Shown here: piece after piece, positions 6,282 to 25,187 of the stretch
How positions within the stretch are numbered: position 1 is the first letter of the stretch
Layout of the letters: each line of letters opens with the position of its first letter
Assembly (NCBI RefSeq): GCF_026427775.1
Contig: NZ_CP044532.1
Coordinates: 124,001-188,000 of the forward strand
Origin: Arthrobacter sp. CDRTa11
GTDB lineage: Bacteria > Actinomycetota > Actinomycetes > Actinomycetales > Micrococcaceae
Reading direction: 5' to 3'
Length of the DNA stretch: 64,000 bases
The notes under the pieces: generated by a model
Database searches by the model: none
What the model saw: the letters and a program-made list of their open reading frames with translations, nothing else
Told to the model about the DNA's origin: nothing
Program-made: the position numbers and the translations under genes

Positions 6282-6411
6282 TGACTCGACTCTCTGTTGG
6301 GGTGGCGTTGGCTCCATCAACAGTCAACGCTAACAATCGCGGCTGTCAAGGCTGTTCCAGCCTTGGGACCTGGTTCTGAAAGCCTTTTCAAAGATGGGGT
6401 AGCGCACCATT

Positions 6412-6425
6412 CTATATCGTTGTAA
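6412..6425 (+). promoter_or_regulatory. Weak arabinan-type LacI operator before the GH27 gene
   Basis: CTATATCGTTGTAA matches the right half (CGTTGTAA) of the operator seen at 17023, 17144 and 25174 and is degenerate in the left half. It overlaps TAAATT (6423-6428), a possible -10 box only six bases before the ATG at 6435, which has no ribosome site. Confidence 0.45.
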
Positions 6426-6434
6426 ATTGTCCCG

Positions 6435-7715
6435 ATGACACTCGCTCAGACACCGCCCATGGGCTGGAACAGTTGGGACTGCTACGGCACCACGGTCACT
6501 GAGGAGGAGGTGCTGGCCAACGCTTCCTTTATGGCTGAACACCTGCTGCCCTATGGCTGGGAGACGGTGGTTGTGGACATCCAGTGGTACGAACCCGCAG
6601 CCCGCGTAGGCGGCTATAACGATGGTGCCGCCCTGGAACTCGACGCCTTCGGACGGCAGCTTCCTGCCGTGAACAGGTTCCCCTCAGCCGCTGACGGAGT
6701 TGGCTTTAAGGACCTTGCGGACAGGATCCACGGCCTGGGCCTCAAATTCGGCGTACACATCATGCGCGGCATTCCGCGGCAGGCAGTCAGGGACCGTCTT
6801 CCAGTGGAAGGCACTGATTTCACTGCTGACCAGGCTGCCGACCAATCCTCCGTCTGTGATTGGAATACGGACAACTTCGGGCTGAATCACCAGCACCCGG
6901 GTGCCCAGGCCTACTACGACTCCCAGCTGCGCCTCTTTGCCGCCTGGGGCGTGGACTTCGTCAAGGCTGACGACATGCTGGGTCCCTACTACGCGGACGA
7001 GATAGCGGCCTATCGGCTCGCCATCTCGCGTTCTGGGCGGGAAATCGCCCTGAGCCTGTCGCCAGGCCGCGCGCTGTCCCTGGCCCACCTGGAACACCTG
7101 CGCTCCAACTCCCAGATGTGGCGGGTGTCCGATGACCTCTGGGATGTCTGGGAGGACGTGGAGGCGCAGTTCGCCAGGATGGCCCGCTGGGCACCCCACC
7201 AGCGCGCAGGCGCCTGGGCAGATGCCGACATGCTGCCCGTGGGCAGGATTGCACTCAGGGCCGAGCGCGGTGCCGAGCGGCTGAGCCGGCTGACCATGGA
7301 TGAACAGCGGACCATGATGACCCTCTGGTGTGTGTCGCGGTCGCCGCTGATGCTGGGCTGCGACCTGCCGTCCTCGCCCCCGGAAACGCTTGAGCTCCTC
7401 ACCAACCGTGACCTCCTCGACGTCCTGAACGCCAGCCGCGCCAACCGCGAACTGCTGCGCGACGGCGATCTTGTCCTGTGGGCAGCGGAAGGCACGACGT
7501 CGGAGGACCGTTTTGTGGCGGTCTTCAACACCGGGACAGGGGACTTGGTCCGCTCGCTTCCGCTGGGTGACCTTGGTTTGGCCTCCGCATCATGGAAGGC
7601 GCGCGAGGCCTGGAGCGGCAACGATGCCGTGCTCGGCCTGAAGGATGACTTGCCGGCGCTGGACGTGAAGCTGCCCGGCCATGGCTCACAGCTCTTCCGC
7701 TTCACAGCGGAGTAG
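6435..7715 (+). CDS. Glycoside hydrolase family 27 (alpha-galactosidase or beta-L-arabinopyranosidase type)
   Basis: A 426-residue intracellular TIM-barrel glycosidase with C-terminal beta domain. Hallmarks are PPMGWNSWDCYG (7-18), VVVDIQWYE (46-53), the nucleophile region FVKADDM (Asp179) and the acid/base region WRVSDDLWD (Asp234, with Asp233 next to it). No signal peptide, so it would act on imported oligosaccharides. GH27 enzymes remove terminal alpha-D-galactose or beta-L-arabinopyranose; the second would fit the arabinan/arabinogalactan genes nearby and the shared operator half-site, but the sequence alone does not decide. A perfect 46-bp palindrome follows the stop directly. Confidence 0.85.
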   Translation: MTLAQTPPMGWNSWDCYGTTVTEEEVLANASFMAEHLLPYGWETVVVDIQWYEPAARVGGYNDGAALELDAFGRQLPAVNRFPSAADGVGFKDLADRIHGLGLKFGVHIMRGIPRQAVRDRLPVEGTDFTADQAADQSSVCDWNTDNFGLNHQHPGAQAYYDSQLRLFAAWGVDFVKADDMLGPYYADEIAAYRLAISRSGREIALSLSPGRALSLAHLEHLRSNSQMWRVSDDLWDVWEDVEAQFARMARWAPHQRAGAWADADMLPVGRIALRAERGAERLSRLTMDEQRTMMTLWCVSRSPLMLGCDLPSSPPETLELLTNRDLLDVLNASRANRELLRDGDLVLWAAEGTTSEDRFVAVFNTGTGDLVRSLPLGDLGLASASWKAREAWSGNDAVLGLKDDLPALDVKLPGHGSQLFRFTAE

Positions 7716-7761
7716 GCGCGAACGGACACTTAAGCCCCGGGGCTTAAGTGTCCGTTCGCGC
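7716..7761. terminator. Perfect 46-bp palindrome after the GH27 gene
   Basis: The two 23-base arms are perfectly complementary with no loop (centre between 7738 and 7739), beginning on the base after the TAG stop. It lies between convergent genes and probably terminates both. It could also be a member of a dispersed palindromic repeat family. Confidence 0.7.
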
Positions 7762-7790
7762 GTCACCCGGCGTTAGGGAGAGCTCCCGGT

Positions 7791-8660
7791 TTAGCCAACC
7801 AGCCAGTGCGACGGCGGCGAAAGGCGCGGCGGGAGGACTGTAGCACTGCTGCCCATGGCTGAGTTGAGTTGCGGCTGGGTGAGGAACAGCGCTGCGGAGA
7901 GGTCGGCGCCGTCGAGCCTTGCATCCCGCAGGTCGGCCCCCAACAGGTCCACGCCGGCGAGGTCGGCACCCCGGAGGTCGGCGCCAATCAGGTAAGCGCC
8001 ACGGAGATCCGCGCCGCAGAGCCGGCGCTGGCGGAGGTTGGCTCCCATCAGGTCCGCACCCGGCTGCAGGTCCGGATCAAGGTGCCCGCCGCCGTCGGCA
8101 AAGTAGGCCGCCCGCACCTCTTCGCTGATCTCCATCAGGGTTCCCCTGACTTCGCCGTGAAGGCCCTCAATATCGCAGCTGAGGAGCCCGGGGACGGTAC
8201 CCCCGGCAATCGCATCGATCCTCCCGGCCAGTTCCTTCGCGTCCTCCGCGGCGTAGGAGTCGAACGTTCTTGCCTGGGCCTCGGCAAGGTGCCACAGCAT
8301 TTCGTGCAGCTGCCTCATGGATTTGAACGCGGCGAACATGACATGTTGCGAGTCCGGGTTATCCCGCCAGCTGATGCCGCCGAAAAGCCGCTGCGAGACG
8401 GCCTGCCCCGCCCCAAAGCAGTCAAAGACCGTGCAGCCGGAAAAACCCCTGGGCCGGAGGCGGTCGTGAATGGTGCACGAAAAGTCCTGGCCCAGGTTCC
8501 GGCAGGGTGTGCCCGCGGGCTTGTCGATGGCGAAGTCCGCGGAGCGGGTGAAGCCGAAGGCTGTGCAGCACAGCGCGAAGCAATTGCCACAGTCAGGGCG
8601 CAGCTGGCCCAGGTCAAGGGTGGGGGTGATGCGGTTCTGGGGTGTAGGTGTGATGTTCAA
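7791..8660 (-). CDS. YkgJ-like cysteine-rich domain plus pentapeptide repeats
   Basis: A 289-residue protein with two parts. Residues 24-81 hold eight cysteines (24, 27, 31, 32, 53, 62, 76, 81), starting with CxxCxxxCC, like the putative zinc- or iron-chelating YkgJ/CxxCxxCC family. Residues about 201-260 hold ten or more pentapeptide repeats of A(D/N)LxG type (GADLMGANL, GADLRGAYLIGADL), which form a right-handed beta-helix. The middle is helical and unassigned. The start is TTG, with GGGAGA five to six bases upstream. Pentapeptide proteins can mimic DNA or scaffold complexes; a metal-binding head on such a helix is unusual. Function unknown. Confidence 0.75.
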   Translation of the reverse strand: MNITPTPQNRITPTLDLGQLRPDCGNCFALCCTAFGFTRSADFAIDKPAGTPCRNLGQDFSCTIHDRLRPRGFSGCTVFDCFGAGQAVSQRLFGGISWRDNPDSQHVMFAAFKSMRQLHEMLWHLAEAQARTFDSYAAEDAKELAGRIDAIAGGTVPGLLSCDIEGLHGEVRGTLMEISEEVRAAYFADGGGHLDPDLQPGADLMGANLRQRRLCGADLRGAYLIGADLRGADLAGVDLLGADLRDARLDGADLSAALFLTQPQLNSAMGSSATVLPPRLSPPSHWLVG

Positions 8661-8702
8661 GGATTCTCCCGAAGATGATTTCCGTCAGTGTGCTGGGGAG
8701 GA

Positions 8703-8724
8703 GGGAACTCGTGGACGAGTTCCC
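8703..8724. promoter_or_regulatory. 22-bp palindrome in a divergent intergenic region
   Basis: GGGAACTCGT and its complement ACGAGTTCCC are separated by GG. No gene ends here, since the flanking genes diverge, so an operator or a 5' leader hairpin is more likely than a terminator. The rest of 8661-8892 shows nothing I recognise. Confidence 0.4.
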
Positions 8725-8892
8725 CTTTCGGGCACACGGAATCACCGCTCCAGCGAGCGTCCGGCAAAGGCTGCGGAGGCTCTGGGTCACGGAAAACGGG
8801 TCACAGAGAAGAAATAAGAATCACTGAAACTGAGAATACCCCTTCAACGGGCAGGTGTGGATCTGCCAGTCAGCAGGACGTTCGAACAAGTC

Positions 8893-8922
8893 TTGCCCGG
8901 AGTGCAAGTTTGCACGTAGTGT
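8893..8922 (+). promoter_or_regulatory. TetR promoter with embedded operator
   Basis: TTGCCC (8893-8898) and TAGTGT (8917-8922) form a -35/-10 pair with an 18-bp spacer. The spacer holds the inverted repeat GTGCAAGTTTGCAC (8902-8915). The -10 box ends seven bases before the GTG start at 8930, which predicts a leaderless transcript repressed by its own product. Confidence 0.6.
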
Positions 8923-8929
8923 AGCTATC

Positions 8930-9652
8930 GTGACTTCTGATACAACCACACCAGCCGAGGCGGCAGTTCCCCAGCTGTCCCGGCGGGAACTCAACAAGGC
9001 AGCAACCCGCCAGGCAATTACAGATGCCACCATGGATCTTGTCCGGCAAAAAGGCCTGGGCAACTTCACGGTGGAGGACATCGCCGATGCCGCCGGCGTC
9101 TCCCGCCGCACCTTCTTCAACTACTACGCCAGCACCGAGGCGGCGATCGGAAACGTCACCCACGGTTTCCTGGACGTAGCGCTCCAGCAGTTCCGGCTGC
9201 GCCCGGCGGGTGAACCGGTGATCGTCTCGGCCAGGGAAGCCCTGATGGCCCTTGCCGATCCCATGGCCGTGGCGCCCGTTGCCGAGCTCTTCAGCCTGAT
9301 TCAGCAGAACCAGCAGCTCGCCCGTACGGAGCTCGAAGCGTGGGACCACTGCGCCGGGCAGATTATTGAGGCGGCGCGTGAGCGCATTGCCGGGGACACC
9401 GGCGTCGAACTGGATGAGCTGTACCTCCGGGCGCTGGCAGGCTCGGTGATTTCCTGCGGCAAGGCCGCCGTGGAAGTCTGGTTTGCCCGCTGCGGCGCTG
9501 ACCTCTCCGAGGCCTCCATGGCCACGCTTCGGCAGCTGATGATCGATTCCATGGATCTGCTGGCCTGCGGCTTCGGCACCACGCCAGACACCTCACAGAC
9601 TCCCCAGGCTGCTGAAACCCCGGCATCCGCACTTCCCACAGATCGGCACTGA
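8930..9652 (+). CDS. TetR family transcriptional regulator
   Basis: A 240-residue repressor. The N-terminal helix-turn-helix covers about residues 25-70 (ATRQAITDATMDLVRQKGLGNFTVEDIADAAGVSRRTFFNYYAS), followed by a helical ligand domain. The GTG at 8930 is chosen because a -10 box lies seven bases upstream and a palindromic operator precedes it; the longer frame from 8855 would start inside the promoter. The MMPL exporter gene begins one base after the stop, the standard arrangement for a TetR that controls a lipid or drug exporter. The inducing ligand is unknown. Confidence 0.85.
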   Translation: MTSDTTTPAEAAVPQLSRRELNKAATRQAITDATMDLVRQKGLGNFTVEDIADAAGVSRRTFFNYYASTEAAIGNVTHGFLDVALQQFRLRPAGEPVIVSAREALMALADPMAVAPVAELFSLIQQNQQLARTELEAWDHCAGQIIEAARERIAGDTGVELDELYLRALAGSVISCGKAAVEVWFARCGADLSEASMATLRQLMIDSMDLLACGFGTTPDTSQTPQAAETPASALPTDRH

Positions 9653-9653
9653 C

Positions 9654-12185: not shown

Positions 12186-12271
12186 GCTGGCGCCGGGATG
12201 CCCGTTGGCCGTACTCAGCCCTGCGTACCCGCATGATTACCCGCCGGAGTGCATAACAGGATGGATTCTTG

Positions 12272-12658
12272 ATGCCGTTGGATCAGCTTGCCGCGATGGT
12301 TGCGTGTGTTGTCCTGGGTGGCCTGGCAGTCTTCCAGGCCGCCCTGGTTGCAGGGGCTCCGCTGGGGAGAATGGCATGGGGAGGGCAGCACGAAGTGCTC
12401 CCCGTCCGGCTCAGGGCAGGCAGCGCGGTGTCCATTGGGCTGTACGCACTTTTTGCCTACGCGGCCCTGGCCAAAGCCGGCCTGGGCCCGCCCCTGGTCA
12501 ACGAATCCTTCACCTCGGTTTTTTCCTGGGTGCTGACGGGCTACTTCGCCCTGGGCGTGGTGATGAACGGCATCTCCCGGAGCAAGCCGGAACGCCTCGT
12601 CATGACCCCGACGGCACTGTTGCTCGCAGCGTTGTACCTGGCGCTTTCGCTTAACTGA
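12272..12658 (+). CDS. Small integral membrane protein
   Basis: A 128-residue hydrophobic protein with about four predicted membrane helices and no recognised domain. ATG at 12272 is preferred over the overlapping TTG at 12269; AGGATGG lies just upstream. It follows the MMPL gene in the same direction with an 86-base gap, so it may be part of the same transcript, but it has no known link to MMPL function. Confidence 0.65.
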   Translation: MPLDQLAAMVACVVLGGLAVFQAALVAGAPLGRMAWGGQHEVLPVRLRAGSAVSIGLYALFAYAALAKAGLGPPLVNESFTSVFSWVLTGYFALGVVMNGISRSKPERLVMTPTALLLAALYLALSLN

Positions 12659-12716
12659 CGCTTTCCCAACACCGACGCCGCATTGGTGACCTGCTTTCCC
12701 TGAGTGGGCAACCCTT

Positions 12717-14636: not shown

Positions 14637-14650
14637 GGGTTTTTGCTCCT

Positions 14651-15355
14651 TCACGCTCTGCGGTCCACCGCTGCCAGGATTGCCTGGCCCAGTTCCGCAG
14701 GTTTGGTGAACTGGGGCCAGTGCCCGGTGGGAAGGTCCACGTACTCCACGTCCCGGATACGGGCCAGCTCCGCCACGTAGGGATGGCCGGCGTCGATCCA
14801 CTCCTGAAGCAGTGAGGAAGGAAACTCGCAGGCGATCACGGTGGCGGGGACGTCATACCGGCGGACGTCGTGCAGGTGCTGCTGATCGAACGCCACGCCC
14901 TTGGGCTGCGGGATGGCGCGGGCCCGGAATTGGGCACGAAGGTCCTCGGTGAGGTCCGTGAGATCGGCGTCTTCGAAACCTTCCCAGGGCGGCAGGGGAA
15001 TCTGGTCGCCCTCCGCCGGCAGCTCATCGTTGATGACGCCGCCCTCGCCCAGGGGGCCGCTGTCCACGTAGATGGCGCGCTCCACCCGGTCCGGCCGCGC
15101 ATCAACCACCCCGTGGATGATGGCGCCGCCGCCGGAGTGGCCCACCAGCACCACTTTTCCTTCCAGCCCGTCCACGGCCCTCACGACGGCGTCGATGTGG
15201 TCACGCAGGCCAATTCCGGCGCGCGGGGCGTCTGCAGACTCGAGGCCGGGGAGGGTGAGCGGATGGGGCGTGTGCCCTACCGCCTCCAAGGGCGGCGTCA
15301 CCTCCGCCCACGACGAGGCGTCCAACCAGAAACCGGGTACCAGGATGATGTCCAT
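14651..15355 (-). CDS. Alpha/beta fold hydrolase
   Basis: A 234-residue small alpha/beta hydrolase. The oxyanion-hole region is LVPGFWLDASSW (5-16), the nucleophile is Ser74 in VGHSGGGAI, and the catalytic histidine is in PTGHWPQF near residue 217. This form (GFWLD, TGHWP) is common in uncharacterised actinobacterial esterase-like proteins. It sits 14 bases before the amylosucrase gene, so the two are likely cotranscribed, though no functional link is known. Substrate unknown. Confidence 0.8.
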   Translation of the reverse strand: MDIILVPGFWLDASSWAEVTPPLEAVGHTPHPLTLPGLESADAPRAGIGLRDHIDAVVRAVDGLEGKVVLVGHSGGGAIIHGVVDARPDRVERAIYVDSGPLGEGGVINDELPAEGDQIPLPPWEGFEDADLTDLTEDLRAQFRARAIPQPKGVAFDQQHLHDVRRYDVPATVIACEFPSSLLQEWIDAGHPYVAELARIRDVEYVDLPTGHWPQFTKPAELGQAILAAVDRRA

Positions 15356-15379
15356 GACGAAAAACCCTACCCGGCCCCC

Positions 15380-15408
15380 GGCACAGCGTTAAGCCCCCAC
15401 GCTGTGCC
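15380..15408 (-). terminator. Hairpin after the secreted arabinanase gene
   Basis: A perfect 10-bp stem 15380-15389/15399-15408 with a 9-base loop between the GH43 stop and the next gene on the same strand. It would separate the arabinanase transcript from the hydrolase-amylosucrase unit. Confidence 0.6.
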
Positions 15409-15440
15409 GCCCCAGGGACTAAACCCGGAGGTTAAGGGCT

Positions 15441-16949
15441 TTACCGCACGGAAAGTCCGACGGCGTCGGTGGTCACCGAGCCGTGGGCGTTGCGGAAAAC
15501 GGCGCGCACCAGAAGATCCGGCTTTAGGGAGTCGTCCTCCGTGGAAGCGGCCGCCAACTCGAGGGTGGAACTGTACGTGCCCTCGTCCGTCCGCTTGGTG
15601 ATGGGCTGGGATTCAAGCTGCGCCCAGGTGGCCCCGCCGTCGGAGGACGTCTCCCAGACAGCTACCGGGCCCGGCGTCCCGGTGGCTGTGGCGGCGAACA
15701 CGGCCTTCTTCCCGGCGTCCACGGATACCGGCTTCGGCTGCTTCTGTACCGCCGGGAGCTCCACGGTCTGGTCAAAAGCGGGCCAGCCGTCCACCCAGTT
15801 GATCTTCTGCAGTCCCAGTGTGGGAAAGTACGGGATGTCCTGGTTGGACCCGTCGTAGTAGTGGAACGCCAGGTAGTCGCCAAAAACCGACTGTCCGCCC
15901 GGGCCCGTGATTGCACCGTGCGAATCCAGCACCACGGACCCGCCGCCGCCGAACATGTCGCGGCCGTCCTTGTCCAGGTAGGGGCCCTTCACCGACGTGG
16001 AGCGGCCCACCGCCACTTTGTAGGTGGAGTCCGCGCCCCGGCAGCAGGAATCGAAGGAGACAATCAGGTAGTAGTAGCCGCCGTGCCGGGTGATGTACGG
16101 GGCCTCCACGGGGTTGCCCGGCATAAAGCGGTCCGCGATATTGACGGTCTTGGACTGCCAGTCGGCCACAGGCTTGCCGGTGGGCCACTCGATGGGCACC
16201 AGGAAGATCCCGTACCAGAACGAGCCGATGGCCATATAGGGGGTGCCGTCCGCATCTTCGATGATGCCGGCGTCGATCGCGTTGAACGTCTTGCCGGGGT
16301 TGTTCGGATCCAGCCCCATGGCGGGGGAGGAGACCACCAGGCCCTGGTCCACCCACTCGTAGCTGGGGTCGTTGGGGTCAAGAGTGGTGTTGGTGGCCAG
16401 GGCGGTCAAAGAGTTGTTCCCGCCAAAGCGCGACGCCGAGTAGTACAGGTAGTAGGTTCCGTTGTGTTCGGTGATTTCCGGCGCCCACAGGTTGCCCGGC
16501 AGCTCGCCGTCGGCGAAGTGCTCATCAATCCACGCCGGAATCTTGTCCCAGACCGTGCCGCTGTACTCCCACGTGGTTCCCTGGTCCGAGGAGGACCAGA
16601 TCTGGATGGTCCCGCCGTTCTCCCTGTTCAGCAGTCCGGTGGAATAGACGTACCACGTGCCGTCGTCGGCGATGATCAGCGCGGGATCGTGGATTGGCGA
16701 GGTCTGGCCCACCACCGTTTTGCCGCCTGGCAGGTCGGCCTGCTGCTTCTGCGCTCCAGCCTGCTTCTGCGCCCCGGCCTGCTTCTGCTCAGCAGCCAGC
16801 AGCTGTTCTATTGCCGGCCTCTGTTCTATCGCTGGTCTGTGTTCAATGGCTGCGCCCGCGGCCGGCGGCAGTGCCGCCGCTGTCAGCGCGATGCCAAAAG
16901 CCGCTGCCAATCCCGCTGCGCGCGTTGTCCAAGATCGTGACTTCGTCAT
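15441..16949 (-). CDS. Secreted arabinan endo-1,5-alpha-L-arabinanase (GH43)
   Basis: A 502-residue exported enzyme. Residues 1-34 form a signal peptide (RAAGLAAAFGIALTAAALPPAAGA). Residues about 35-72 are a low-complexity linker of IEQRPA and KQAGAQ repeats. The five-bladed GH43 domain follows with the general base Asp88 (SPIHDPAL), Asp226 (NAIDAGI) and the acid Glu282 (VEAPYI). A C-terminal Ig-like domain occupies about 400-502. It cuts internal alpha-1,5 bonds of arabinan outside the cell. The ATG at 16949 has GGAAGGACC upstream and gives a normal signal peptide. It is divergent from the ABC transporter operon, and an operator-like palindrome lies at 17023. Confidence 0.88.
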   Translation of the reverse strand: MTKSRSWTTRAAGLAAAFGIALTAAALPPAAGAAIEHRPAIEQRPAIEQLLAAEQKQAGAQKQAGAQKQQADLPGGKTVVGQTSPIHDPALIIADDGTWYVYSTGLLNRENGGTIQIWSSSDQGTTWEYSGTVWDKIPAWIDEHFADGELPGNLWAPEITEHNGTYYLYYSASRFGGNNSLTALATNTTLDPNDPSYEWVDQGLVVSSPAMGLDPNNPGKTFNAIDAGIIEDADGTPYMAIGSFWYGIFLVPIEWPTGKPVADWQSKTVNIADRFMPGNPVEAPYITRHGGYYYLIVSFDSCCRGADSTYKVAVGRSTSVKGPYLDKDGRDMFGGGGSVVLDSHGAITGPGGQSVFGDYLAFHYYDGSNQDIPYFPTLGLQKINWVDGWPAFDQTVELPAVQKQPKPVSVDAGKKAVFAATATGTPGPVAVWETSSDGGATWAQLESQPITKRTDEGTYSSTLELAAASTEDDSLKPDLLVRAVFRNAHGSVTTDAVGLSVR

Positions 16950-16963
16950 CACGTGGTCCTTCC
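16936..16963 (-). repeat. Inverted copy A of a 28-bp start-region repeat
   Basis: These 28 bases, read on the minus strand, are identical to 17246-17273 on the plus strand. They cover ribosome site, start codon and first four to five codons of the GH43 gene. Confidence 0.85.
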
Positions 16964-17022
16964 AAAAAGGGTGGTTGGGGGATAAGTCGACGACGGTAGC
17001 GGGGATGCGCCCGACCGAAAAG

Positions 17023-17036
17023 TTGCAACGTTGTAA
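17023..17036. promoter_or_regulatory. LacI operator for the GH43 arabinanase
   Basis: TTGCAACGTTGTAA is a 14-bp near-perfect palindrome (one mismatched pair) 74-87 bases before the GH43 start. It matches the sites at 17144 and 25174. Confidence 0.7.
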
Positions 17037-17111
17037 CGAGAAATATGGCACGCGCCGGCAGGGGCGTCAAGGGAACGGGCCGCACGGTCAAAAAGAAAAC
17101 GCCGCGCCCCC

Positions 17112-17157
17112 TTGACGTTCTTTACATCGTTGTGTGAAAGTTCTTACAACGTTGCAA
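17112..17157 (+). promoter_or_regulatory. Promoter region and tandem operators of the arabinan ABC operon
   Basis: TTGACG (17112-17117) may be the -35 box. A degenerate site TTACATCGTTGTGT (17122-17135) and a strong site TTACAACGTTGCAA (17144-17157) follow with centres 22 bp apart. No clear -10 box could be fixed. The remaining part of the 310-base divergent region 16950-17259 shows nothing else recognised. Confidence 0.6.
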
Positions 17158-17245
17158 AAACAGTCCCGGATGCCTGTCCGCCGCCTCACCGCTGCCAGCG
17201 GGACTGAGTCTGACCAGCAAGCATTCTTGATCCATTTACCCAACC

Positions 17246-17273
17246 GGAAGGACCACGTGATGACGAAGTCACG
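17246..17273 (+). repeat. Copy B of the 28-bp start-region repeat
   Basis: Identical to the reverse complement of 16936-16963. It covers the ribosome site, ATG (17260) and first codons (MTKS) of the solute-binding protein gene. Confidence 0.85.
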
Positions 17274-18591
17274 TCCCATGGCCGCTGCCTTGGCGCTTTT
17301 GACCGCAACAGGCCTGATGCTCGGCGGATGCTCTGCCCCAACAGGCGGGGATGCCGGCGAAAAGAAACTGACCTTTATGTTCCGTGGGGGTGAGGACGAA
17401 AAGAAGGCCTACGAAAAGGCCGTAGCGCAGTTTGAAACGGACAACAACGTGGACGTGGACATCATCGTCACCACCGCGGACCAGTACGCCACCAAACTGA
17501 AGGCTGCCATCGCCGGCAAGCAGGTCCCGGATGTCTTCTACATCGGCCCCGGCGACGTTCAGGCGTACGTGCAGAACGGCATCGTCAAGGACATCACCGA
17601 GTACGTGGAGAAGTCCGACACCATCGACCTGGAGAACATCTGGGAGTACGGCGTCGACAGCTACCGCTACGACGGAAAGCGGGTGGGCGAAGGCGCTATC
17701 TACGCCCTCCCCAAGGATGTTGGACCGTTCTCCTTCGGCTACAACAAGACCATGCTGGAAAAGGCGGGCATCCCGCTTCCGGACAAGGACAAGCCGTACA
17801 CCTTCGACGAATTCGTGGCCGCGGCCAAGAAGCTGACCGCGGACACCAACGGGGACGGCGCCATGGACCAGTGGGGCACCGGCCTGAACGTCCAGTGGAA
17901 CCTGCAGCCTTTTGTCTGGTCCAACGGCGGCGACTGGCTCAACGAGGACCGCACCAAGGTCACGGTGGACACGCCGGAGTTCGCCGAATCCCTCCAGTGG
18001 TTTGCTGACCTGCAGAACGTCCACGGCGTGACGCCGTCCGTTGCCGAGGCACAGACCCTGGACACGTACCAGCGCTGGATGAAGGGCGAAATCGGCTTCT
18101 TCCCGATCGCTCCGTGGGACCTCTCCACCTACCAGAAGCTGGGCTTTGAATGGGATGTCATCCCGTACCCGGCCGGCGACACCGGCAAGACCGCCAGCTG
18201 GATCGGAACGCTGGGCGTGGCTGTGTCTGAGAGCACCAAGCACCCGGAGGAGGCCGTCAAGCTGGTGGAATACCTGACGGCCAACAAGGAAGCCCAGCAG
18301 AGCCTGGTGGATGCCGGTATCCAGATCCCCAACCTGAAGGACATGGCTGAGACCTGGGCCGCCGACACCACCACCAAGCCCGCCAACAAGGCCGAGTTCC
18401 TGCAGATCGTGAAGGACTATGGGCGGGCCCTGCCGGGCGGCAACACCTTCAACGCCGAGTGGTACGACGAACTCTTCACCAACATCCAGCCCGTGCTGGA
18501 CGGCAAGCAGACCGCTGCCGACTACCTGAAGGAAGCCCAGCCGCGGATGCAGGAATTCCTGGACGCAGCCAACCAGCAGGCCGGCAGCTAA
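17260..18591 (+). CDS. ABC transporter solute-binding lipoprotein (arabino-oligosaccharide type)
   Basis: A 443-residue family 1 sugar-binding protein. The signal sequence ends in lipobox LGGC with Cys24, so it is anchored to the membrane outside the cell. The mature part shows the usual two-lobe pattern ([53 protein letters not shown]). It would deliver arabino-oligosaccharides to the permeases at 18725 and 19639; the sugar is inferred from the GH43 and GH51 neighbours. The ATG at 17260 is the one giving a clean lipoprotein signal. No ATP-binding subunit is encoded here, so a shared MsiK-type ATPase elsewhere in the genome is likely. Confidence 0.85.
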
Positions 18592-18602
18592 CCCCCACAC
18601 CA

Positions 18603-18638
18603 GGTGTCGCGGCTGCACCGGAAGGCAGCCGCGGCACC
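18603..18638 (+). terminator. Intercistronic hairpin after the binding-protein gene
   Basis: A 14-bp stem (one T-G wobble) 18603-18616/18625-18638 with an 8-base loop. It lies inside the operon, 12 bases after the binding-protein stop. It probably protects the upstream message or stops part of transcription, so that binding protein exceeds permease. Confidence 0.6.
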
Positions 18639-18724
18639 GTTCCACCCGTCTTTTGAAGTGCTGCCCTTTTACCGGGCAGCACCGTCCCGAATCAAAGCAG
18701 TCCCGAATCAAAGAGGATCCAGCG

Positions 18725-19627
18725 ATGTCATCAACCATCACGCGCCGCTCGCGGCTTCACCGGAAGGAACACCAGGCCGCGCTTGTCTTTGTTGCCATAC
18801 CGGTGATCGGGTTCCTCCTCTTTACGCTTTTCCCCTTGCTTTTCTCCGTCTATGCCTCCTTCACGAACTGGAACGGGATCTCCGCGCCGGTGTTCAAGGG
18901 CCTGGACAACTACACCAAGATGTTTGGTGACCGGTACTTCCTGAAGTCGCTGTGGAACACCGTCTTTATGATGATCGGCATCCCCGTTGGCCTGGTCATT
19001 TCGCTGGCGCTGGCACTGGCCATGAACCGAAAAATGCGCGGCACCACGATCTTCCGCACGGTCTACTACCTGCCGGTGATCTCCTCCATCGCGGCCGTGG
19101 CCATCCTGTGGCAGTGGGCCTTCAATGGCGATTTCGGCCTCATCAACCAGGGGCTGGGCCTGCTGGGGATCGACGGCCCCAACTGGCTGCAGGACACCGC
19201 CACCGTGAAGCCTGCCCTGATCATCATGGCGGTGTGGAAGGGGCTGGGGTATTCGATGCTGCTTTACCTGGCCGCCCTCCAATCGGTGCCCCGCTACCTG
19301 TATGAGGCCGCCGCCCTGGACGGCGCCTCCGCCTGGCAGCAGTTCCGCCACATCACCATTCCCATGGTCCGGCCGGTCACTTTCTTCCTTATCGTCACCA
19401 GCATCATTGGCGGTTCCCAGATCTTCGTGGAAATCAACATCATGACCCCCACCGGCGGCCCGGAGTTCGAGTCCGCTTCCATCGTCTGGTACATCTGGCA
19501 AAAAGCGTTCGACAACCTCCAGATGGGCTACGCCTCGGCCATGTCCGTGGTCCTGGGGCTGCTGGTCTTCATCATCACCTTTATCCAGTTCCGGCTTAAC
19601 CGCCGCAACCAGTTTTCGATCGATTGA
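18725..19627 (+). CDS. Sugar ABC transporter permease (MalF type)
   Basis: A 300-residue inner-membrane permease with six predicted membrane helices and the EAA loop (YEAAALDGASAWQQFRHITIPMV) that contacts the ATPase. The ATG at 18725 has AGAGGATCC upstream; longer frames run back into the intercistronic hairpin. It pairs with the MalG-type permease 11 bases downstream and the binding protein upstream to import, by inference, arabino-oligosaccharides. Confidence 0.88.
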   Translation: MSSTITRRSRLHRKEHQAALVFVAIPVIGFLLFTLFPLLFSVYASFTNWNGISAPVFKGLDNYTKMFGDRYFLKSLWNTVFMMIGIPVGLVISLALALAMNRKMRGTTIFRTVYYLPVISSIAAVAILWQWAFNGDFGLINQGLGLLGIDGPNWLQDTATVKPALIIMAVWKGLGYSMLLYLAALQSVPRYLYEAAALDGASAWQQFRHITIPMVRPVTFFLIVTSIIGGSQIFVEINIMTPTGGPEFESASIVWYIWQKAFDNLQMGYASAMSVVLGLLVFIITFIQFRLNRRNQFSID

Positions 19628-19638
19628 GGCAGGCAGCC

Positions 19639-20592
19639 ATGTCCGCGCAGAATGTCATCACCACCCCTCCACTGGAAACCACCGAGCCGATCCCCGGCCA
19701 CCGGCGGGACAGAACCGGCAACCAGCCGCACCGTGCAAAAGATGGCCAGCATTCGACCAAAAACGGGCTCAGGCTGGGCAACATCCTGACCACCCTGATC
19801 CTCAGCGTGGGCGCCATCATCATGATCGCGCCGCTCGCCTGGACCTTTTCCACGTCGCTGAAAACCAAAGATGGCGTGTTCGAGCTTCCGCCGCAGTGGA
19901 TTCCGGACCCGTTCGTCTGGGAAAACTACGCGCGCATCTGGACGGCCGGGCCGCTCCTCACCGGCATCCAGAACAGCCTGATCGTGGCATGCTCAGTCAC
20001 CATCATCGGTTCCCTGACCTCCGCGCTTGCGGCCTTCGCGTTCGCCAAGATGCGGATGCCCTTTAAGAACGTCCTTTTCCTGGGCCTGCTGTCCGGCCTG
20101 ATGATCCCGTTCCCCACACTGATGATTCCGCAGTTCACCATCTTCGCCAGCATCGGCTGGGTGGACACCCTGCTGCCGCTGATCGTGCCCGGGCTGTTCG
20201 GCAACATCATCATGATCTTCTTCCTGCGGCAGTTCCTGAACAGCGTGCCGGATTCCATCGTGGAGGCGGCAAGGATCGACGGCGCCTCCTACCTGCAGAT
20301 CTTCTGGACCCTGATCATGCCCGCCATCCGTCCTGCGCTGGCGGCCCAGTTCATCCTCTGGTTCATGGCCATGTGGAATGACTACCTGGCGCCGATCATC
20401 TACCTCAACTCACCGGGCACGCAGACCCTCCAGTTGGTGATCGCCAACTTCAATGCCCAGTACGCCATCCAGACCGACTACCCCCTGATCATGGCGGCAT
20501 CGTTCATCGCACTGCTGCCAGTCCTGATCGTTTTCATCGTCTTCCAGCGCCAGATCATCGAATCAATCGCCCTCTCGGGATCCAAGGGCTGA
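19639..20592 (+). CDS. Sugar ABC transporter permease (MalG type)
   Basis: A 317-residue permease with six membrane helices after a hydrophilic N-terminal tail of about 50 residues. The EAA loop is VEAARIDGASYLQIFWTLIMPAI. ATG 19639 is preferred, as GAGGCAGGC precedes it; the TTG at 19624 overlaps the previous stop. It is the second membrane subunit of the arabinan-island transporter. Confidence 0.88.
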   Translation: MSAQNVITTPPLETTEPIPGHRRDRTGNQPHRAKDGQHSTKNGLRLGNILTTLILSVGAIIMIAPLAWTFSTSLKTKDGVFELPPQWIPDPFVWENYARIWTAGPLLTGIQNSLIVACSVTIIGSLTSALAAFAFAKMRMPFKNVLFLGLLSGLMIPFPTLMIPQFTIFASIGWVDTLLPLIVPGLFGNIIMIFFLRQFLNSVPDSIVEAARIDGASYLQIFWTLIMPAIRPALAAQFILWFMAMWNDYLAPIIYLNSPGTQTLQLVIANFNAQYAIQTDYPLIMAASFIALLPVLIVFIVFQRQIIESIALSGSKG

Positions 20593-20594
20593 CC

Positions 20595-21275
20595 ATGCCG
20601 GCCAATAACCTCGCCGTTTTACCGAACGAACTGCATCTGGGCTGGGCCGGCCGGGTGATGCAGTGGCTGGGCTTCGCCACCCGGCTGGTGCTGGTGAACC
20701 TGCTGTTCGTGGCCGGGGCCCTGGCCGGCCTGTTGGTCTTGGGGCTGTTCCCCGCCGCCGTCGCGGCCACCACCATCCTGGCCAGGCTGCGCGCAGGGCT
20801 TGCCGGCGAGCACCTGGTGCGTGACTTCATCAGCGTGTACCGCTTCCAGTTTTGGCACGCCAACCGGGTGGGCAGCATATTCTGGCTGGCCGGCGTCGTA
20901 CTTGGCCTTAATGTCCTCAGCGTGCTGGGACCGGAGGGCGCCGTGTTGCTGTCCTCGCCCGTCCACGCCGTCCTTCTTCTCCTGGCGGCGCTGGCAGGCA
21001 CTGCCACCTTCATGGCGGCCGCGACGGCGGTGGCCATCTGCAGCCGTTGCCGTGACTCGGTGGCAGGGACCTGGCGGACGGCGTTTGTGCTTCCGCTTGT
21101 GTCGCCCATGATGAGCATTTCGCTGTTGCTGAGCCTGGTGGCATGCGCCGTCATCTTCTCCGGAATGACCGTCCTCCTGCCGCTGGCAGGGGCATCGGTT
21201 CCCCTGCTGCTTTCCGGTTGGCTGGTGGAACGCCGGCTCTCCGCCCTCCAACAGGGGCACACCGTCCCCGCCTGA
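20595..21275 (+). CDS. DUF624 (YesL-like) membrane protein
   Basis: A 226-residue protein with about five to six membrane helices, of the DUF624 family often found next to sugar ABC transporters. The family signature region is near the N-terminus (GLFPAAVAATTILARLRAG, then a segment with FWHANR). It starts two bases after the permease stop, so it is cotranscribed. Its role is unknown; the constant link with sugar permeases suggests an accessory role in uptake or its control. Confidence 0.8.
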   Translation: MPANNLAVLPNELHLGWAGRVMQWLGFATRLVLVNLLFVAGALAGLLVLGLFPAAVAATTILARLRAGLAGEHLVRDFISVYRFQFWHANRVGSIFWLAGVVLGLNVLSVLGPEGAVLLSSPVHAVLLLLAALAGTATFMAAATAVAICSRCRDSVAGTWRTAFVLPLVSPMMSISLLLSLVACAVIFSGMTVLLPLAGASVPLLLSGWLVERRLSALQQGHTVPA

Positions 21276-21303
21276 CGCTTTCAATCCCTATCCACACGCT
21301 CTT

Positions 21304-21371
21304 GCCCAACTAGGTAGCGCCAACTGTCGTTTAGACAGCTCAAAACGACACTTAGAGCTACCCAGTTGGGC
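21304..21371. terminator. Large nested inverted repeat between DUF624 and GH51 genes
   Basis: Outer arms 21304-21318 and 21357-21371 pair over 14 of 15 positions (one A-C mismatch). An inner hairpin 21325-21332/21343-21350 pairs over 8 bp. It lies right after the ABC operon and just before the GH51 operator, so it likely isolates the two units. Confidence 0.6.
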
Positions 21372-21381
21372 CGGACTTTTA

Positions 21382-21395
21382 CTACAACGTTATAC
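21382..21395 (+). promoter_or_regulatory. LacI operator overlapping the GH51 promoter
   Basis: CTACAACGTTATAC shares the CAACGTT core of the arabinan operators. It overlaps TATACA (21391-21396), a possible -10 box with TTGGGC (21366-21371) as a weak -35 at 19 bp. Confidence 0.55.
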
Positions 21396-21410
21396 AGAAC
21401 AGGAAGAACC

Positions 21411-22961
21411 GTGACCATCACCTCCGCTGCTGCTGAACAGACCGACTTGGCTGTTGTGGCACCCACCGTCATCACCGTCGACAGGTCCGCCGTTGTTGCC
21501 CCCGTCAGCCGGCGCATCTTCGGCTCCTTCGTGGAGCACCTGGGCAGGTGCGTCTACGACGGCATCTACGAGCCCGGGCACCCCACCGCCAACGAGGACG
21601 GATTCCGGCTGGACGTCATCGAGCTGGTCAAGGAACTCGGCTCCAGCACCATCCGCTACCCCGGCGGCAACTTCGTTTCGGGCTACCGCTGGGAGGACGG
21701 CGTGGGACCACGGGATCAGCGCCCGGTCCGCCGCGACCTCGCCTGGCACTCACTGGAATCGAACCAGGTGGGCCTGGACGAGTTCGCCCGCTGGTGTGAG
21801 CTCACGGGCTCCGAGCTGATGATGGCCGTGAACCTGGGCACCCGCGGCATCGATGCCGCCCTTGACCTGCTGGAGTATGCCAACCACCCCTCCGGCACCG
21901 CCCTCAGTGAGCAGCGCATCGCCAACGGGGCCAAGGATCCCTACAACATCCGGATGTGGTGCCTCGGCAACGAAATGGACGGCCCGTGGCAGATCGGCCA
22001 CATGTCGGCCGACAGCTACGGCAGGCTTGCGGCCCGTACGGCGTCCGCCATGAAGACCGCGGACAAGGACCTGCAGCTGGTGGTATGCGGCTCCTCGAGC
22101 TCCTCCATGCCCACCTTCGGCGAATGGGAGCGCGTGGTCCTGGAGCACAGCTACGACTACGTGGATTACATTTCCTGCCACGCCTACTACCAGGAGCGCA
22201 ACGGGGACCTGGGCTCCTACCTCGCGTCCTCGCTGGACATGCAGTACTTCATCGAGACCGTGGTGGCCACCGCCGATCACGTCAAGCATAAGCTCAAGAG
22301 CAAAAAGACCATCCAGCTCTCCTTCGACGAGTGGAACATCTGGTACCTGGACGAGCACCAGGCCTCGGACGAGGTCAACGAGGAATGGACCCACGCACCG
22401 CGCCAGCTGGAGGATGTCTACTCCGTGGCCGACGCCGTGGTGTTCGGCAACCTGCTCATCACCCTGCTGAAGAACCACGACCGGGTGGCCGCGGCCTCGC
22501 TGGCCCAGCTGGTCAACGTGATTGCGCCCATCATGACGGAACCCGGCGGCGACTCCTGGCGGCAGACCACGTTCTTCCCGTTCTCCGTCACCTCGCGCCT
22601 GGCCCGGGGCGAGGTGCTCCGCCCGCGGATCGAGGCAGGGACGTACACGACGGCGGTTTACGGCGAAGCGCCGCTGGTGGACGCCGTGGCAACCGCCGAC
22701 GCCGCCACCGGCCAGTCGGCGCTGTTCCTGGTGAACCGCAGCCAGACGGAGGCGATCGACGTCAGCATCAACGTGTCAGAGCTGAACGCCACGGTGGTGA
22801 CCGAGGCCGTCACCCTCCACGACGAGGACGTATACGCCAAGAACACGCTCCAGGACCAGAACCGCGTGGGCCTGAAGCAGCTCAACGGTGCCGTCCTGGA
22901 GGAGGGCACCCTGACGGTGACACTCCCGCCGGTGTCCTGGTCCGCCGTCGCGCTTGGCTGA
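21411..22961 (+). CDS. Alpha-N-arabinofuranosidase (GH51)
   Basis: A 516-residue intracellular GH51 enzyme that removes terminal alpha-L-arabinofuranose from arabino-oligosaccharides. The acid/base is Glu188 in CLGNEMDGPW and the nucleophile is Glu307 in LSFDEWNIWY. The GSFVEHLGRCVYDGIYEPGH motif (38-57) is typical. The GTG at 21411 follows AGGAAGAACC; an upstream ATG at 21366 would lie within the inverted repeat and operator. It completes the degradation of oligosaccharides imported by the upstream transporter. The next GH43 gene starts immediately after. Confidence 0.92.
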   Translation: MTITSAAAEQTDLAVVAPTVITVDRSAVVAPVSRRIFGSFVEHLGRCVYDGIYEPGHPTANEDGFRLDVIELVKELGSSTIRYPGGNFVSGYRWEDGVGPRDQRPVRRDLAWHSLESNQVGLDEFARWCELTGSELMMAVNLGTRGIDAALDLLEYANHPSGTALSEQRIANGAKDPYNIRMWCLGNEMDGPWQIGHMSADSYGRLAARTASAMKTADKDLQLVVCGSSSSSMPTFGEWERVVLEHSYDYVDYISCHAYYQERNGDLGSYLASSLDMQYFIETVVATADHVKHKLKSKKTIQLSFDEWNIWYLDEHQASDEVNEEWTHAPRQLEDVYSVADAVVFGNLLITLLKNHDRVAAASLAQLVNVIAPIMTEPGGDSWRQTTFFPFSVTSRLARGEVLRPRIEAGTYTTAVYGEAPLVDAVATADAATGQSALFLVNRSQTEAIDVSINVSELNATVVTEAVTLHDEDVYAKNTLQDQNRVGLKQLNGAVLEEGTLTVTLPPVSWSAVALG

Positions 22962-22962
22962 C

Positions 22963-24036
22963 GTGCGCCCCCGGAACGTTAGCCCTGCAGCCGGCCGCCG
23001 GCCGGGCCGTTCGTCATCAGCGGTCCTTCACCTCAGAGCGGTGGGGCTGGCTGCGGCGCTGGCCGCCGTCGTCCTGGTCCTGTCAGCCTGTGCCGCCGTT
23101 CCCGGCGCCACGGCCGAACAGGAACCAGCGGAGGCCGGGCTGAGCGGGGATATTTTCACCCACGATCCTGCCCTGGTGAAGGGCGGGGACGGCGAATCCT
23201 GGTTCATCTACTCCACCGGCAACGGCCAGGTGGCGGACGGAAACATCCAGATCCGCCGCTCCACCGACGGCAGGAACTGGGAACACGCCGGCGAGGTGTG
23301 GCAGCAGAAACCGGCCTGGCTTGCGGCGGCGGTTCCCGGTGTGGACAACCTCTGGGCGCCGGAGCTGTACCAGCACAACGGCACCTGGTACCTCTACTAC
23401 TCCGCCTCCACCTTCGGCAAGAACCTGTCCGTGATTGCACTGGCCACCAACACCACGCTTGACCCGCAGGACCCGGGCTATGAATGGGTGGACCGGGGGC
23501 AGGTGATGTCCTCGAAGGGGGAGCGGTTCAACGCCATTGATCCCGGCATTGCCGAGGACGCGGACGGCACGCCGTGGATGTCCTTCGGTTCGTTCTGGAC
23601 CGGGCTGCAGCTGGTGGAGCTCGAGTGGCCCAGCGGCCTGCCCGCCGCGGGTGCGGAGCCGGTGACAATAGCTGACCGGAAGGCGCCGCCGAATGCCATC
23701 GAGGCGCCGTACATCCTGCCGCACGACGGTGCCTTCTACCTCTTCTTCTCCCGCGATTTCTGTTGCCAGGGGCTGGAGAGCACCTACAACATTGCCGTCG
23801 GGAAATCCGACAGCATCAACGGTCCCTATGTGGATGCCGAGGGCAAGGCACTGCTCGACGGCGGCGGCACACCGCTGCTGGGCACCGACGGCGGGCGCGT
23901 GGGGCCGGGCGGCCAATCCGTTTCCGGGGGCACCCTCGCGTTCCACTACTACGCCGAGGAACTCGACGGCGCCTTCCGGCTGGGCCTGGCCGAGCTGGAG
24001 TGGAAGGACGGCTGGCCCACTGTCCGGTGGGACTAA
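22963..24036 (+). CDS. Lipoprotein GH43 arabinanase-like enzyme
   Basis: A 357-residue GH43 protein with N-terminal signal (RAVGLAAALAAVVLVLSAC, lipobox Cys43), so it is probably lipid-anchored at the cell surface. Active-site motifs match the secreted paralog at 15441: FTHDPALV (Asp68), NAIDPGI and IEAPYI, plus the FCCQGLESTYNIAVGKS segment. The start is uncertain: GTG 22963 directly after the GH51 stop, or TTG 22954 overlapping it; neither has a clear ribosome site, so translation coupling is likely. It lacks the Ig-like C-terminus of the paralog. It probably trims arabinan near the transporter. Confidence 0.85.
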   Translation: MRPRNVSPAAGRRPGRSSSAVLHLRAVGLAAALAAVVLVLSACAAVPGATAEQEPAEAGLSGDIFTHDPALVKGGDGESWFIYSTGNGQVADGNIQIRRSTDGRNWEHAGEVWQQKPAWLAAAVPGVDNLWAPELYQHNGTWYLYYSASTFGKNLSVIALATNTTLDPQDPGYEWVDRGQVMSSKGERFNAIDPGIAEDADGTPWMSFGSFWTGLQLVELEWPSGLPAAGAEPVTIADRKAPPNAIEAPYILPHDGAFYLFFSRDFCCQGLESTYNIAVGKSDSINGPYVDAEGKALLDGGGTPLLGTDGGRVGPGGQSVSGGTLAFHYYAEELDGAFRLGLAELEWKDGWPTVRWD

Positions 24037-24042
24037 CCACCC

Positions 24043-24105
24043 GAGTTTTTGTCCAGTTACGGCGACTTCCGGTCGGTTTATCTCGCCGTAGCTGGACAAA
24101 AACTC
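24043..24105. terminator. Long inverted repeat between convergent GH43 and lacI genes
   Basis: Two 23-base arms, 24043-24065 and 24083-24105, pair throughout with a single G-T wobble around a 17-base loop. Position between convergent genes supports a bidirectional terminator. Confidence 0.7.
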
Positions 24106-24115
24106 TGAGGGGGCG

Positions 24116-25123
24116 TTAGCCCACCGTTGATTCCCGCGGCACCACGCGGAAAGCAGCTTCGATCTGACGCGGCGCACCGCCATCCGGATTCTTAATCCGC
24201 TCCATGAGCATCCGGATGGCGGTCTCCGCAATCTCCACCCGCCCCGGGTCCACGGTGCTGAGCGTGGGCAGCGAATAGCGCGTTTCGTCCAGGTCATCGA
24301 AGCCGATTACGGCGACGTCGTCCGGCACACGGAAGCCCGCTTCCTGCAATACCCGCACGGCGCCCTGGGCCAAGGTGTCATTGAGCCCGAACACGGCGTC
24401 GAATGATGCGCCACGGTCCAGGAGATCGTGCATTGCTGCCGCGCCGTTGGAGCGGTGCCAGTCCCGGACGTAGGCGATGATGCCGTCGTCGTACGGGATG
24501 CCCCGGGCCTCAAGCGCCTCGCGGTAACCGCGGAGCCGGAGCCCGGCAGAGCCAATGACTTCCCCCTGGTGGGCGCCCACCACGGCGATTCGCTTCCGGC
24601 CGAGATCCAGCAGGTGTTCGGTGGCTGCCCGCGCGGCGGTGACGTTCTGCATGGTGACGTGGTCCGAGCCGCTGCCGAAGATGCGTTCACCCAGCAGGAC
24701 AATCGGCACCTCTGCCTTAACGAGGTCAGCGTCTTCCTGGCCCATGGCGAGCGGGCTGAAAATCAGGCCGTCCGACATCTTGAGCCGCGGGCTGGACATC
24801 ACTTCGAGCTCCCGGGCGCGGTCAGCGCCTGTCTGCTCAATCAGCACCACCAGGCCATGCTTCGCGGCGGCTTCGATCACGGCGTCGGCCAACTCGGCGA
24901 AGTAGGGCAGGCTGAGCTGGGGGAGCGCCAGGGTGATGGCACCAGTCTGCCCGGAGCGCAGGCTGCGGGCCGTCAGGTTGGGACGGTATCCCAGCTCGGC
25001 AATGGCCTGCTCCACTTTGGCGCGGGTGGTGTCCCGGACATGCGGGTGGTTGTTGATGACATTGGAGACCGTCTTGAAGGACACGCCGGCGACCCGGGCC
25101 ACGTCGTGAAGAGTCGCTGCCAT
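24116..25123 (-). CDS. LacI family regulator of the arabinan island
   Basis: A 335-residue LacI/GalR repressor. The helix-turn-helix and hinge are at residues 3-55 (LHDVARVAGVSFKTVSNVINNH, YRPNLTARSLRSG), followed by the periplasmic-binding-like sugar domain ending in IGFDDLDETRYSLPTLSTVDP. An operator-like palindrome at 25174 lies 51 bases before its start. Similar sites lie before the GH43, ABC, GH51 and, weakly, GH27 genes, so it probably represses all of them and is released by arabinose or an arabino-oligosaccharide. The effector is inferred. Confidence 0.88.
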   Translation of the reverse strand: MAATLHDVARVAGVSFKTVSNVINNHPHVRDTTRAKVEQAIAELGYRPNLTARSLRSGQTGAITLALPQLSLPYFAELADAVIEAAAKHGLVVLIEQTGADRARELEVMSSPRLKMSDGLIFSPLAMGQEDADLVKAEVPIVLLGERIFGSGSDHVTMQNVTAARAATEHLLDLGRKRIAVVGAHQGEVIGSAGLRLRGYREALEARGIPYDDGIIAYVRDWHRSNGAAAMHDLLDRGASFDAVFGLNDTLAQGAVRVLQEAGFRVPDDVAVIGFDDLDETRYSLPTLSTVDPGRVEIAETAIRMLMERIKNPDGGAPRQIEAAFRVVPRESTVG

Positions 25124-25173
25124 GGTGGATCTCCTTGCTAAGGTTCCCGGCCGTTTGGCCAGCTAGGAAAATA

Positions 25174-25187
25174 TTACAACGTTGCAT
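25174..25187 (-). promoter_or_regulatory. LacI autoregulatory operator
   Basis: TTACAACGTTGCAT differs in one position from the strong site at 17144-17157. Confidence 0.7.

Follow-up and report, generated by a model that had tools for sequence, protein, structure and literature searches.

Arabinan genes of the window and their probable shared operator motif

The arabinan gene cluster of Arthrobacter sp. CDRTa11 described here lies in a stretch of 64,000 nucleotides (G000:C1:124001-188000, hereafter the window) of a 5.16 Mb genome that forms a single contig. The cluster contains a glycoside hydrolase (GH) family 43 gene divergent from an ATP-binding cassette (ABC) transporter operon headed by a solute-binding protein (SBP) gene, followed by a GH51 gene, a second GH43 gene and a lacI gene, with a GH27 gene farther upstream (Table 1). 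The lacI product, LacI-1, has a helix-turn-helix and a sugar-binding domain and is encoded together with its proposed targets.

An earlier note on this DNA claimed that one palindromic motif precedes the GH43, ABC, GH51 and lacI genes, with a half-matching site at the GH27 start. All six sites were located where it had placed them. The consensus of this motif (motif A) is approximately TTACAACGTTGTAA, better written as YTRYAWCGWTRYAR; the sites at 17023 and 17144 differ from TTACAACGTTGTAA by one mismatch, that at 25174 by two, and those at 6412, 17122 and 21382 by three. At up to three mismatches, the window contains seven matches against 0.35 expected, a number reached in none of 100 shuffles. 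The bare 8-mer CAACGTTG was discarded as evidence by itself, its three matches against 1.19 expected not being significant (10 of 100 shuffles reach three). LacI-family operators are described as even palindromes with a central CG (PMC4052901), and all six sites are 14-bp near-palindromes with a central CG.

A weight matrix was derived from 70 occurrences of the site before LacI, SBP, GH27 and GH51 genes in loci of other genera (L070-L132), and is not wholly blind, these sites having been preselected at up to three mismatches to the window consensus. Within the window it ranks exactly the six sites highest, the seventh-ranked hit scoring 10.7 bits. Across 30 first-order Markov windows, the top score was 16.2 bits and the mean of the top scores 10.1. 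The site at 17122 is therefore within reach of noise. The GH27 site, on the other hand, is operator-like at full score, and the description of it as half-matching did not hold. The seventh match at up to three mismatches (56593), which was not part of the earlier proposal, is absent from the 14 best matrix hits. Overall, one shared candidate operator motif linking the arabinan genes of the window was confirmed.

Table 1. Genes, promoter elements and operator sites of the window; positions count from its first letter, and bits given for sites are weight-matrix scores.
Feature	Position	Strand	Remarks
Motif B CAGTCAACGCTAACAA, AraQ-like palindrome	6321..6336	.	Between GH27 and divergent oxidase; in 7/8 orthologous regions having the divergent gene
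GH27 operator (motif A) CTATATCGTTGTAA	6412..6425	.	10-23 nt upstream of start codon; overlaps TAAATT, -10-like; 18.9 bits
GH27, probable beta-L-arabinopyranosidase	6435..7715	+	Pfam Melibiase_2; nearest solved structure 4nx0
GH43, arabinanase-like, signal-like N terminus	15441..16950	-	Pfam GH43; NCBIfam AbnA 222.5 bits (cut-off 480); start probably ~16950
GH43 operator TTGCAACGTTGTAA	17023..17036	.	21.9 bits; directly past CATATT -10 of leftward promoter (-35 at 17070-17065)
-35 element TTGACG, ABC promoter	17112..17117	+	17 bp upstream of TGAAAG; 10/10 aligned sequences, by eye
Weak match TTACATCGTTGTGT, probably no operator	17122..17135	.	13.5 bits; -35/-10 spacer of ABC promoter
ABC operon operator TTACAACGTTGCAA	17144..17157	.	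21.9 bits; alignment of relatives
Solute-binding lipoprotein, arabino-oligosaccharide type	17260..18591	+	6rjy, 594 bits
Two ABC permeases	18653..19627, 19624..20592	+	Pfam BPD_transp_1
DUF624 protein, ABC operon	20595..21275	+	
GH51 operator CTACAACGTTATAC	21382..21395	.	18.4 bits; site in 8/12 relatives' GH51 upstream regions
GH51 alpha-L-arabinofuranosidase (ArfA)	21411..22961	+	NCBIfam ArfA 702.5 bits (cut-off 625); start read as GTG at 21411
GH43, endo-arabinanase-like	22954..24036	+	Solved arabinanases 1wl7 and others, ~290 bits; AbnA 253 bits (cut-off 480)
LacI-1, candidate repressor	24116..25123	-	Pfam LacI + Peripla_BP; recognition helix SFKTVSNV
lacI operator (autoregulation) TTACAACGTTGCAT	25174..25187	.	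19.2 bits

Position of the sites in promoters

The divergent region between the GH43 gene and the ABC operon was aligned with those of nine relatives, and a -35 element was found in all ten sequences in both directions (TTGACG toward the ABC operon, TTGAC toward GH43). In the window, inspection by eye placed a -10-like element 17 bp past each -35 (TGAAAG and CATATT, respectively), with the operator a few bases on. A repressor bound at these positions would be expected to block polymerase. The match at 17122 was rejected as a second ABC operator: it sits in the spacer between the -35 and -10 elements, has no counterpart in the nine aligned relatives and is probably fortuitous. Thus, of the two sites originally assigned to the ABC operon, that at 17144 stood and that at 17122 did not. 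At GH27, a TANNNT element 6 nt upstream of the start codon was found in 8/9 orthologues. It overlaps the operator, always with the same offset, and this spacing suggests leaderless transcription of GH27.

Two repeats were also observed near these promoters. A 28-bp exact inverted repeat (16936-16963 and 17246-17273) spans the ribosome-binding sites and initial codons of the GH43 gene and the SBP gene divergent from it; on visual inspection, relatives retain part of this repeat, some showing co-changed bases (L059, L061) and others not (L062, L064). The DUF624 gene and the GH51 operator are separated by an imperfect inverted repeat of ~70 nt (~21302-21373; GCCCAACTAGGTAGC ... GCTACCCAGTTGGGC), a terminator or repeat element.

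Conservation of the sites in relatives

Conservation was assessed in 80 named loci carrying LacI-1 homologues, 17 of Arthrobacter type and 63 other, a site being a match with at most three mismatches within 250 bp upstream; a gene was counted at a locus when its tblastn placement lay above the chosen identity threshold and at least 150 upstream bases were present. The first twelve named relatives are all Arthrobacter or Pseudarthrobacter, and their LacIs are 87-93% identical to that of the window. The site was found upstream of SBP in 26/29 loci (9/9 Arthrobacter-type, 17/20 other), upstream of GH27 in 16/17, all of other genera, upstream of GH51 in 8/12, and upstream of LacI in 40/80 (14/17 Arthrobacter-type, 26/63 other). 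None was found upstream of the internal operon genes (MSD1, 0/30; MSD2, 0/24; DUF624, 0/13). As a control, 48 palindromes with permuted half-sites and the same central CG were scanned; none reached the counts observed for LacI, SBP, GH27, GH51 or GH43, the means being 0.02-0.23. The earlier note had proposed to scan relatives with the motif and to give its reading up if orthologues lacked it; sites proved to be kept before the LacI, SBP, GH51 and GH27 orthologues, and the reading stands.

The 17 GH27-bearing loci of other genera come from Cellulomonas, Demequina, Sanguibacter, Isoptericola, Oerskovia, Antribacter and Krasilnikoviella; in these the GH27 gene has the LacI-1 homologue nearby and often adjoins the ABC operon. 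A survey of 61 genomes of the genus yielded a GH27 match in ten, full length in nine, and motif A at up to three mismatches was found before all nine.

Sites elsewhere in the genome

Six exact matches to YTRYAWCGWTRYAR are present in the genome, all preceding arabinose-related genes; at up to one mismatch, there are 54 against 17 in the control. This pattern was composed after inspection of the sites, and those at 21382, 25174 and 400043 (genome position) are one letter off. A genome scan had also been part of the earlier proposal; at up to two mismatches to TTACAACGTTGTAA, six of seven places precede arabinose-related genes, and the result at up to three is discussed below.

Five sites indicate targets outside the window. 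The site at genome position 465315 precedes a second GH51 gene (GH51-2) adjoining araBDA and is present in 30/30 orthologues, 29 of them at up to three mismatches. That at 467643 precedes a second lacI gene (LacI-2) and is found in 15/30 loci at up to four mismatches, and that at 4768956 precedes a second ABC operon and is present in 28/28 loci (66-100% identity). The site at 400043 precedes a GH43-like gene, 20/25 homologues of which have the site; apart from the gene itself, these homologues are 38-51% identical. In 19 of the 20 it lies within 150 bp, and in the other (L198) 162 bp upstream. This site falls inside the longest open reading frame (ORF), and its upstream placement requires a GTG start near 7005 of L020. 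The fifth, at 307132, precedes a GH43 gene resembling 3akf, a putative secreted alpha-L-arabinofuranosidase.

Other matches were set aside. Among ten weak genome-wide matches picked as possible further members, nine lie inside predicted coding sequence. The match at 28096 lies inside an ORF, and that at 2387012 precedes a gene with SBD_N and NBD_C domains. Another LacI (IKTVSRV) was judged to account for the TGACAACGWTGTCA sites found at 486813 and 491105. The tenth weak match, CTACAACGATGGAG at G000:C1:657606 (L268:607), lies between divergent GH65N_2-domain and GH43-like genes and is a weak lead to a possible further member. Separately, the region G000:C1 ~2381000-2389100 (L022) was observed to contain two genes twice, in inverted order and ~5 kb apart, with the same N-terminal sequences.

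Which repressor reads the operator?

The genome contains 35 LacI-family matches, and recognition helices were read in 30 loci. Among these 30, Lys at the second variable helix position was found only in LacI-1 (FKTVSN), LacI-2 (LKTVSN) and L038 (IKTVSR), and the same three are the only ones with an ACAACG-type motif A, at up to four mismatches, in the ~300 bp upstream. LacI-2 is 52% identical to LacI-1. KTVSN is present in 80/80 LacI-1 homologues, and LKTVSN in 29/29 LacI-2 proteins read (30 loci). In a tree, the named LacI-1 homologues form one clade (81 members, support 0.95), with LacI-2 outside it in a clade of its own (support 1.0); support for a joint clade of LacI-1 and LacI-2 is 0.66.

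The presence of either protein was scored among up to 35 candidates per genome. GH27 and its site are present in G057, with LacI-1 among the matches listed and LacI-2 not among them, and in G037, G048, G051 and G054, with LacI-2 among the matches listed and LacI-1 not among them. LacI-1 is not the sole candidate regulator, since LacI-2 differs little from it in the recognition helix and GH27 retains its site in genomes for which one paralogue is listed and the other is not; as judged from the sequences, LacI-2 has a helix of the same type, and its gene is preceded by a site of the same type. Most simply, the operator could be used by either paralogue.

Alternatively, GH27 and the other outlying targets could belong to LacI-2 and not to LacI-1, the two target sets being separate and merely alike. 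The four genomes in which LacI-2 is the one listed would fit such a division, as would the ~1 kb distance between GH27 and LacI-2 in G048 and the position of LacI-2 next to araBDA and GH51-2. G057, however, shows the opposite pairing within the same capped lists, and in the other genera the GH27 genes that lie near a LacI-1 homologue keep the site in all loci but one. We consider this division unlikely, while still taking it seriously.

A broader form of operator sharing is possible and is put forward tentatively: one operator common to the paralogous repressors LacI-1, LacI-2 and, in relatives, LacI-3, in which the KTVSN helix would be kept while the sensor domains diverge, and GH27-type promoters would stay silent until every repressor present had seen its sugar. 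In 25/28 loci the second ABC operon has LacI-3 (PKTVSN) as its neighbour; in this genome, G058 and G019, LacI-3 was not found within 1.5 kb of that operon. Where LacI-3 is present, the site of the second ABC operon is TTACATCGATGTAA in 20/25 loci and mixed in five; where it is absent, the site is mixed in 3/3, a difference that is suggestive at these small numbers. If this model is true, a genome that loses a paralogue would keep the operator, served by another, and operators would outlive regulators, as for GH27 in G057 versus G037, G048, G051 and G054 and for the second ABC operon in the three genomes lacking LacI-3. AND logic for several sugars would then arise simply from paralogues not changing their DNA-reading helix.

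The GH27 enzyme

The nearest solved relative of the window GH27 is Abp (4nx0, 431 bits), a GH27 beta-L-arabinopyranosidase from Geobacillus stearothermophilus, with which it aligns over residues 4-402; the best solved entry named alpha-galactosidase scores 92 bits. Ile67 of Abp is reported as the residue separating arabinose from galactose specificity, and group VI GH27 beta-L-arabinopyranosidases are described as having Ile instead of Asp at this position together with loop insertions L6, L7 and L8 (PMC4598101). Ile49 of the window GH27 is aligned with Ile67 of Abp, and Ile was found in 26/26 GH27s examined. The two enzymes thus share the specificity Ile, although Abp comes from a host of another phylum. 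The window GH27 is a probable beta-L-arabinopyranosidase, its likelier substrate being beta-L-arabinopyranosyl residues as in arabinogalactan. Its assignment to arabinan or arabinogalactan use, made in the earlier note from the site, is now backed by the likeness to Abp, the invariant Ile, the kept site and the neighbourhood with a LacI-1 homologue and the ABC operon.

It is very improbable that the GH27 site is a chance likeness, a -10 element resembling half an operator, before an unrelated alpha-galactosidase. The Pfam label Melibiase_2, the third-best solved relative (a putative alpha-N-acetylgalactosaminidase, 404 bits) and the three mismatches of a site overlapping TAAATT, which might be conserved on its own, could be read in this way; against them stand the score of the site with a matrix from other genera, its presence before all nine full-length orthologues of the genus and nearly all in other genera, and the occurrence of Ile, not Asp, at the specificity position.

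Upstream, a gene for an ALO-family flavin adenine dinucleotide oxidase (D-arabinono-1,4-lactone oxidase domain; 5025-6284, minus strand) is divergent from GH27.

A second, AraQ-like motif

A second motif, TTGTTAGCGCTAACAA-like and named motif B, resembles the AraQ consensus TGTGAGCGCTCACA given in PMC4746261, and two of its sites lie between araF and araB, a position among ara genes. Motifs A and B stand together before the second ABC operon in 28/28 orthologues, ~33 bases apart from start to start (G000:C1:4768956-4769004; L018 ~7957-8005). Motif B also lies between GH27 and the divergent oxidase gene (Table 1), an apparent motif B of L141 having been discounted as it falls inside the GH27 coding start. 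At up to three mismatches, no motif B was found in the arabinan cluster of the window. Motif B as a general second operator (CGCTAACAAT before GH27, GH51-2 and araFGH/araBDA) was rejected: it fails at GH51-2, where it was found at up to four mismatches in 3/30, and the AACAAT shared there is probably a -10 element. A LacI protein with the helix SHQTVSRV (L029), encoded at the end of araFGH, is a candidate binder of motif B; its own 300 bp upstream contain neither a motif A nor a motif B site, and two other lacI genes have motif B there.

Control by motif B and an arabinose regulator, with motif A only secondary or local, is scarcely credible: the sites at araF/araB, the second ABC operon and GH27 would suit it, but the window cluster has no motif B at up to three mismatches, and GH51-2 has motif B in 3/30 orthologues against motif A in all 30.

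A putative arabinan regulon

Taken together, the sites, their conservation, the promoter geometry and the protein families, all of which were computed, are most readily explained if motif A serves as operator in a regulon under a LacI-family repressor, the substrates being arabinan, arabino-oligosaccharides and glycans that end in beta-L-arabinopyranosyl residues. We put the probability of this reading at roughly 0.8; the pairing of repressor and site, the effector and a repressive mode of action are inferred.

Several observations weigh against this reading. Half of the LacI loci (40/80) lack the site, 37 of them among the 63 outside the Arthrobacter type, and a site was found upstream of GH43 in only 4/38. 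Both GH43s of the window score below the AbnA cut-off, and the site at 307132 is present in its own genome only (1/6 loci). Related species are not independent samples, and the conservation counts are not to be read as probabilities. Finally, the genome-wide scan at up to three mismatches to TTACAACGTTGTAA gave 55 matches against 36 in the control, an excess so modest that this threshold alone does not define the regulon.

According to the proposed mechanism, in the absence of sugar, LacI-1 dimers would occupy the sites at the -10 element or transcription start of the GH43, ABC, GH51, GH27 and lacI genes, thereby obstructing RNA polymerase. They would be released by arabinose or an arabino-oligosaccharide that had entered through the basal ABC transporter. 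Arabinan would then be cut by GH43 and the pieces imported by the ABC system, GH51 and the GH43s would release arabinose, and GH27 would remove beta-L-arabinopyranosyl caps such as those found in arabinogalactan. LacI-2 may read nearly the same operator and share some targets, probably including GH27.

This regulon would offer a testable system for the way in which Micrococcales of soil use arabinan and arabinogalactan. It predicts a substrate class for a GH27 that Pfam calls an alpha-galactosidase and points beyond the window to further targets, namely a GH43 gene at 307 kb, the GH43-like gene at 400 kb, the GH51-2 and LacI-2 genes at 465-468 kb and the ABC operon at 4.77 Mb. It also presents a natural example of one operator apparently shared by paralogous repressors.

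Comparison with known regulons

The literature on operator strings and on LacI regulons for arabinan and arabino-oligosaccharides in Actinobacteria, consulted partly as titles and opening lines of abstracts and with subscription papers mostly outside, did not yield this regulon, the nearest being those of PMC5928203; nothing comparable was found in the Corynebacterium AraR literature. The points that appear to be new are a probable beta-L-arabinopyranosidase as a regulon member and an operator apparently common to paralogous repressors.

In Bifidobacterium, the LacI-family protein AauR (BL0185) is described as acting locally on its own gene and on those for an ABC transporter and GH43 arabinofuranosidases/arabinanases, which GH51 and a putative alpha-galactosidase join in some species (PMC5928203). 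The window likewise contains genes for a LacI, an ABC transporter and GH43 enzymes of the arabinofuranosidase/arabinanase kind, so that the likeness is one of gene content; unlike the AauR regulon as described there, the present one is found in Micrococcales and includes a GH27 of beta-L-arabinopyranosidase type. The bifidobacterial AbfR (BL0543) regulon comprises a LacI, GH51 and an ABC system (araNtPtQt), with AraQ sites too in some species (PMC5928203, PMC4746261), an arrangement resembling that of the second ABC operon here, where motifs A and B stand together. For AraQ itself, no distant sites in other Actinomycetales are reported in PMC4746261, and motif B before the second ABC operon would be such a site if an AraQ-like protein binds it. 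By analogy, the regulon described here appears to be the equivalent, in Micrococcales, of the AauR, AbfR and AraQ regulons of bifidobacteria.

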